Source of the DNA: a virus
Length of the DNA stretch: 64,000 nt
Virus record (IMG/VR): IMGVR_UViG_3300042154_002686
Span: 16,562 to 80,561 of that record
Direction: 5' to 3' (one strand)
Positions within the stretch are counted from its first letter, which is position 1. Every line of letters starts with the position of its first letter. The notes beneath the pieces are model-generated. The model had not been told where the DNA came from, did no database searches, and saw only the letters and a list, made by a program, of their open reading frames with translations. The position numbers and the translations under genes were made by a program. Positions 52,202 to 56,213 of the stretch are shown in pieces.

Positions 52202-52438
52202 ATGACTAATCCGCTATACATCGTTACCGTAGTTTCAAATACCCACGCAACCCTTATGTCCACCTTCCATAACATGAAGGAAGCAGAGGAGTTCGTGGCT
52301 AAAAGCACACGCCCCGAACAGCAGAACCATCCCACCATCGGTTGCTGGGCTACTATCACGGCTCTCTATCCCGTTAAGTGGGACAACGACCGCCTTGACT
52401 CTGAAAATGAGTGGTCTCAACCCGTCCGACTCAACTAA
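52202..52438 (+). CDS. Paralog family C, copy 1 (78 aa)
   Basis: MTNPLYIVTVVSNTHATLMS, TFHNMKEAEEFVAKSTRPE and TIGCWATITALYPVKWDND. Aligns with 53374 (beta strand, TL-x-S-F, a helix with EAEEFV, then CWATIT). Promoter TTGCAT, 18 nt, TCATGT. A small beta-alpha-beta fold like the virion small domain. Function unknown. Confidence 0.72.
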   Translation: MTNPLYIVTVVSNTHATLMSTFHNMKEAEEFVAKSTRPEQQNHPTIGCWATITALYPVKWDNDRLDSENEWSQPVRLN

Positions 52439-54623: not shown

Positions 54624-54823
54624 ATAACCCCATCAAGGGGCGGAGGGCTGACCCACGGGAAAAGGTAAACCAAAGGCTTTACTTCGTCAGTAGATATAAA
54701 ACTACAAAAAAGCGGGCGGACAAAGCACGGGAGGAGGATAAGGCAAGATGGCTTGTCCTTCTCTCTCCGCCACTCAATAAATGGAAACAACACGATGGCA
54801 CAGAAACTACCACGCAACCATAA
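54620..54823 (+). CDS. Basic small protein (67 aa)
   Basis: MNNPIKGRRADPREKVNQRL, YFVSRYKTTKKRADKAREED and a hydrophobic LVLLSPPLNKW segment. Four-base overlap with the previous gene, and it overlaps the next ORF by 29 bases. Possibly nucleic-acid binding from charge alone. Confidence 0.6.
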   Translation: MNNPIKGRRADPREKVNQRLYFVSRYKTTKKRADKAREEDKARWLVLLSPPLNKWKQHDGTETTTQP

Positions 54824-55037
54824 GATAGACCCACAAACGCTTGAGACGGCCTCAAGACGCATTAGCAAGCGAGTCCTTGAACTAATGATGGCTGGGCTAA
54901 GGGATGATGAGTTGTATCATGCTTACAATTCCCTTCGGGATGCCCTTGTAGGCATTCCAGACTACTCATACAAACCTCCAAAGAAGAAGACCTCCACCCC
55001 GAATGAGGTGAAGGTCTCAAAAGTTAAAGGGGCATAA
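54795..55037 (+). CDS. Basic helical protein (80 aa)
   Basis: MAQKLPRNHKIDPQTLETAS, RRISKRVLELMMAGLRDDEL, YHAYNSLRDALVGIPDYSYK and a Pro/Lys tail. The last codons and stop are also the 5' strand of a three-way RNA junction. Unknown. Confidence 0.68.
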   Translation: MAQKLPRNHKIDPQTLETASRRISKRVLELMMAGLRDDELYHAYNSLRDALVGIPDYSYKPPKKKTSTPNEVKVSKVKGA

Positions 55038-55091
55038 TACGCTATCCCTGCGTATTACACCCCTCGGCAAGCGTCCTTGCCTTTATGCCCC
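55029..55091. other. Three-way-junction RNA structure at convergent gene boundary
   Basis: GGGGCATAA (55029-55037) pairs with TTATGCCCC (55083-55091). Inside are TACGC/GCGTA (55038-55042 with 55050-55054, extendable to 8 bp) and GGCAAG-CGTC-CTTGCC (55066-55081). It overlaps the stop of the plus-strand gene and faces a minus-strand gene. A bidirectional terminator or RNA-protecting element is possible; on the minus strand a T-rich tail follows. Confidence 0.65.
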
Positions 55092-55149
55092 TCAGTCGGG
55101 ATGGACTACGGGAAGTCAATGTTTGGTCATTAGAGTGGTGTTCATGGGT

Positions 55150-55323
55150 TTACTTGCAATCGTATTTCTCCGCTCGCTCCTTGGCGATTTCGGCAATCTG
55201 ATACCAGATTTTAGCCATCGTGTCGTCATCGTAGCGAGCCTTGTCGTATTTGCTCTGACCCCACGACCCCGTTGCCCAATCAAGGGCGTGTAAGGCCGTG
55301 TTTCTGATTTCTTCGTTGGTCAT
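55150..55323 (-). CDS. Small protein (57 aa)
   Basis: MTNEEIRNTALHALDWATGS, WGQSKYDKARYDDDTMAKIW and YQIAEIAKERAEKYDCK. ATG 55323 is four bases after the stop of the upstream family D gene (55328). Helical. Part of a three-gene minus-strand run (55857, 55549, 55323). Confidence 0.66.
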   Translation of the reverse strand: MTNEEIRNTALHALDWATGSWGQSKYDKARYDDDTMAKIWYQIAEIAKERAEKYDCK

Positions 55324-55973: not shown

Positions 55974-56213
55974 ATGGACACAAATAAGCAAAAAGAAGTA
56001 ATCCAAAAAGTCAAGGAAATTTGCAAGAAAAATAAAATCGGGGTATTTATGCTCACGGACGGGATGATGACACACATCCAGACCGAGGACGGCAAAAAAC
56101 TTTCGCAGGAGCAAGTTGAGACTCTCAAGGAGCGTCTGATTGAATCGTTTTATGAGATGTATCTTGATTATTTAAGTGCGTTAAGCCTTGACTTGGGACA
56201 CGAAGAGGTGTAA
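55974..56213 (+). CDS. Small protein (79 aa)
   Basis: MDTNKQKEVIQKVKEICKKN, KIGVFMLTDGMMTHIQTEDG, QEQVETLKERLIESFYEMYL then a short end. Promoter TTGACA, 18 nt, TCATAG. Lys-rich helix followed by a beta strand; no family recognised. Confidence 0.72.
   Translation: MDTNKQKEVIQKVKEICKKNKIGVFMLTDGMMTHIQTEDGKKLSQEQVETLKERLIESFYEMYLDYLSALSLDLGHEEV

Follow-up and report, generated by a model that had tools for sequence, protein, structure and literature searches.

In Staphylococcus aureus, A·C mispairs in the stems of TTsbrB/lexA and TT1828, strand-asymmetric terminators located between opposed genes, cause read-through and give rise to antisense RNA (PMC8745188). For Rickettsia prowazekii, in which transcripts were measured, a lack of termination between convergent genes is reported (PMC3027695). 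In E. coli, the ribosome represses a terminator placed only a few bases from a stop codon, and termination recovers as this distance grows (PMC4824070). Here, a convergent gene boundary was analyzed in a window of 64,000 nucleotides (bases 16562-80561) from a virus record of 80,561 bases that carries gpA-type terminase and lambda-type portal genes and eleven tRNA genes. Alignment of the terminase against genome contigs found no relative that would point to a host, and reliance on intrinsic termination is assumed throughout.

Two genes converge on the site: a plus-strand gene that stops at 55037, downstream of which the next plus-strand gene starts at 55974, and the last gene of a minus-strand block, which stops at 55150. 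The site probably holds two tandem Rho-independent terminators that serve the minus-strand block and whose sequence overlaps the 3′ end of the opposing gene. The features are listed below, where G003 denotes the only relative in which this boundary was found.

54795-55037, plus strand: open reading frame of 80 amino acids, function unknown; the G003 orthologue is 69% identical
55150-55323, minus strand: last gene of the minus-strand block, an open reading frame of 57 amino acids, function unknown; the G003 orthologue is 91% identical
55027-55065, minus strand: hairpin 1, a perfect 14-bp core extending up to 16 bp, with a 7-nt loop (folding and stem scan)
55019-55028, minus strand: interrupted T-rich tail, TTTAACTTTT, following the hairpin 1 core of 14 bp (sequence)
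54987-55018, minus strand: hairpin 2, a perfect 14-bp stem with a 4-nt loop (folding; kept in G003 with two compensatory pairs)
54974-54988, minus strand: T-rich tail of hairpin 2, TTCTTCTTTGGAGGT, complementary to Lys-rich codons in the plus-strand gene
55066-55081, both strands: small 6-bp hairpin, GGCAAG/CTTGCC (predicted pairing)
55083-55091, plus strand: distal arm of a supposed three-way junction, predicted to be unpaired with 55029-55037 in context

As in Rho-independent terminators, the two minus-strand hairpins are stable (−21.6 kcal/mol for the core of hairpin 1 and −19.9 kcal/mol for hairpin 2), with G+C-rich perfect stems and short loops of 7 and 4 nt, and they lie on one strand, just past the stop codon belonging to the gene that they would serve. 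Their tails are T-rich but interrupted. They differ from typical members of that class in the break in the tail of hairpin 1 (7 T in 10 bases, broken by AAC), in their location within or beside the 3′ coding end of a converging gene, and in that termination here is a prediction. A polymerase on the minus strand would pass the stop codon at 55150, copy hairpin 1 (55065-55027), which starts 85 nt beyond that stop codon, together with TTTAACTTTT, and would be expected to stop there. Read-through would then meet hairpin 2 (55018-54987), which starts 132 nt beyond the same stop codon, and the T-rich tail of that hairpin, whose complement also encodes the Lys-rich end of the plus-strand gene. The core of hairpin 2, which sits inside the 3′ coding end of that gene, is followed by TTCTTCTTT, likewise T-rich and interrupted. 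Neither Pfam nor PHROG gave a match at E 0.1 to the protein encoded by the plus-strand gene (scanned in the reading from 54792, one codon earlier).

The sequence-only reading had described plus-strand bases 55029-55091 as a compact three-way junction of three stems, which includes the plus-strand stop codon and lacks a following T-run on the plus strand while having a T-rich tail on the minus strand; hairpin 2 lies outside these coordinates. The arms are indeed present, with the outer ones at 55029-55037 (GGGGCATAA) and 55083-55091 (TTATGCCCC) and an inner hairpin within 55035-55057, and both the stop codon TAA (55035-55037) and the distribution of T-runs are as described. As a natural fold, the junction itself did not hold up. 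The isolated plus-strand 63-mer does fold as a three-way junction (−26.7 kcal/mol, z −5.9), with none of 200 shuffles as stable, yet this fold is level with two separate hairpins (−26.5 kcal/mol). The mean pair probability of the outer 9-bp helix, 0.66 without flanking sequence, was 0.03 with 10 nt on each side, 0.14 with 20 nt and 0.00-0.01 with 40-200 nt, and with at least 10 flanking bases the plus strand is predicted to form two side-by-side hairpins, one of which bears two C·A mismatches. On the minus strand, the isolated 63-mer reaches −31.6 kcal/mol (z −5.3) as the hairpin, compared with −27.6 kcal/mol for the junction, whose outer helix had a probability of 0.00 at every flank tried. 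A three-way junction was thus rejected, with outer-helix probabilities of 0.00-0.14 at flanks of 10-200 nt and a tie without flank. The inverted repeats are real, and the folding models indicate that the junction most probably arises only because the plus sequence was trimmed to exactly 63 nt.

Stability relative to the rest of the window was also evaluated. At least as stable as the plus-strand fold were 340 of the 21,326 scanned 63-nt windows, and 61 of 21,326 for the minus-strand fold, with the target and its overlapping neighbours included in both counts. The minus-strand fold ranks sixth among the 25 best separate minus-strand loci listed, and the plus-strand fold is absent from the 25 best separate plus-strand loci. 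At gathering thresholds, Rfam gave 11 matches in the window, all tRNA, and zero at the site, by which a described RNA family was rejected at those thresholds. Membership of a genome repeat family was rejected as well, since a DNA search of the record returned only the self-match at E 0.001, and short-word BLAST against the window and the collected loci gave, besides self, only matches of 11-16 bases. The phage records searched yielded one short 42-base match. It had further been suggested that the element might protect RNA ends. Despite the stability of the excised 63-mer, a junction at the 3′ end of the plus-strand transcript that blocks exonucleases is extremely unlikely, given a junction that is not predicted in context, an element that is missing in G003, and the lack of an Rfam match at gathering thresholds.

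One further reading makes use of the junction in a different way. In minus-strand RNA, the near-identical upstream arms GGGGCAUAA (55091-55083) and GGGGUGUAA (55063-55055) share the downstream arm UUAUGCCCC, so that the two upstream arms might compete for it, and a factor or a trailing ribosome might switch a terminating hairpin to a non-terminating junction and back, as a tunable terminator specific to the phage. Such a switch would need help because the hairpin is favoured over the junction by 4 kcal/mol on this strand, and we consider it extremely unlikely.

Hairpin 1 is the minus-strand form of the 63-nt element, and its core contains T·G and G·T pairs where the plus strand has A·C and C·A. 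It is perfect on the minus strand because the C·A mismatches of the plus strand become G·U pairs there, and its mean pair probability was 0.99-1.00 at flanks of 0-200 nt. Between 54970 and 55149, two perfect stems, of 16 and 14 bp, can form on the minus strand, compared with zero of at least 10 bp on the plus strand. Among 1000 dinucleotide shuffles of this segment, a stem of at least 14 bp appeared in three, one of at least 16 bp in none, and both together in none. In our view, this difference between the strands is what most strongly indicates the direction. The plus-strand mispairs are of the A·C type found in S. aureus TTsbrB/lexA and TT1828; as those terminators are described, the mispaired strand there is the gene's own terminator, whereas here the mispairs lie on the opposing strand, which also lacks a U-tract.

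The same asymmetry bears on the suggestion that one DNA element ends transcripts from both sides. The element does lie between convergent genes, and the only plus-strand terminator-like site listed between 55037 and 55974 is a weak one (55507), with no site bearing a long T-run, which leaves plus-strand transcripts without another obvious end. Nevertheless, the plus-strand stem is broken by two C·A mismatches and followed by TCGGCAAG, or by TCAGTCGG after the distal arm, neither of which contains a U-tract, and its terminator scores (see below) are −53.4 after the hairpin and −56.2 for the junction. A bidirectional terminator therefore appears very unlikely, and the proposal of a terminator at the convergent boundary stands for the minus strand, as a plain hairpin plus a second hairpin, and falls for the plus strand. 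Plus-strand transcripts are not predicted to end at the site, and because nothing there resembles a plus-strand terminator, they may run into the minus-strand genes as antisense RNA. In this the locus, known here from its sequence alone, is like the R. prowazekii pairs as reported, whose opposed genes may produce transcripts running into each other's strand.

In total, 47 terminator-like sites were listed on both strands between 40.5 and 60.4 kb, against 20.4 expected from shuffles, and hairpins 1 and 2 have the longest (16) and second-longest (14) stems among them. By a d'Aubenton-Carafa-type score, hairpin 2 has +8.6 and hairpin 1 −4.1, just under zero, or −28.8 under the 16-bp reading. Nine other sites of the phage were scored in the same way; eight lie above hairpin 2 (13.6 to 53.8) and one is at −34.6.

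Elsewhere in the window, 45 G[G/A/T]TAGG sites occur on the plus strand between 26238 and 44543, mostly directly after a terminator-like hairpin with a T-run; 44 of the 45 have an open reading frame of at least 40 codons starting within 130 nt, and two sequences, TGCGTAAAATTCGGCAAAGATTTTTCTGGTATTT and TTGACCGAACGCTCATAAAAT, recur after these sites. Each small gene could thereby have its own copy of a promoter or 5′ element specific to the phage. The motif in the form GGGTAGGY is present 41 times on the plus strand and 0 times on the minus strand of the window. In a comparison of L002, L003 and L006 with L004, L009 and L018, it is found once or twice, on one strand only, in fragments with 92-93% identical terminase, and it is not in the parts of G003 examined, so the module family may be recent or lineage-specific. 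Separately, the gene starts at 52202, 52813, 53374 and 53934 on the plus strand and 55857 on the minus strand have a common ATGCATNNT about 8-9 nt before the ATG, several with TTGNNA 16 nt further upstream, and these are possible sigma70-like promoters of leaderless genes.

Comparison with G003 distinguishes the two hairpins. The two orthologous genes are only 16 bases apart in G003; the 63-nt element is missing, and in all G003 lacks about 120 bases here other than those of hairpin 2. Hairpin 2 is kept: 13 of its 14 positions pair in G003, with nine unchanged, two changed on both sides and two on one side, all still paired, and one changed on both sides and broken. Each of the three 3′-arm differences is matched by a difference on the 5′ side of its pair (probability 0.027 for random placement), and some of the pairs are T·G in one or both genomes, which is valid on the minus strand only; this covariation rests on two sequences. 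Searches with the minus-strand protein, a RecT-like protein, the minus-strand gene-end pattern and two alignments matched, where they matched anything, only the G003 contig. No relatives were found by the plus-strand protein alone or by the DNA pattern of the element, and six further records reached through the terminase, all fragments, matched the region only weakly, over 11-28 bases.

Hairpin 1 is without comparative support because it is absent from G003, and it is best read as an additional hairpin of this phage relative to G003, weak by its score. It is conceivable that hairpin 2, which is conserved and scores better, is the only working terminator, and that the region of hairpin 1 was inserted in this lineage and does no more than stabilise 3′ ends or serve as a backup. 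This seems somewhat unlikely, as hairpin 1 forms a perfect stem on just the minus strand, is longer than hairpin 2 and has the T-rich following sequence of a terminator. With two sequences compared, the element may be a gain in this phage or a loss in G003. A decayed gene module, considered on account of a minus-strand start-like ATGACC at 55130 (four codons) that resembles other gene starts, was dropped, four codons being indistinguishable from chance.

The G003 hairpin begins about 12 nt after its stop codon, compared with 85 nt for hairpin 1. By analogy with E. coli, hairpin 1 would thus lie beyond the reach of a ribosome halted at the stop codon, and the insertion may have given this phage a better-placed terminator. 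The site is best seen as a pair of putative terminators of an ordinary kind between convergent genes, which had been mistaken for a three-way junction, and offers a clean example of how excised short folds can mislead. Where a stem is perfect on one strand through G·U pairs and broken on the other, the strand on which it acts can be read from the sequence; here, a predicted minus-strand terminator has been kept, with compensatory changes, within the coding end of the opposing gene.
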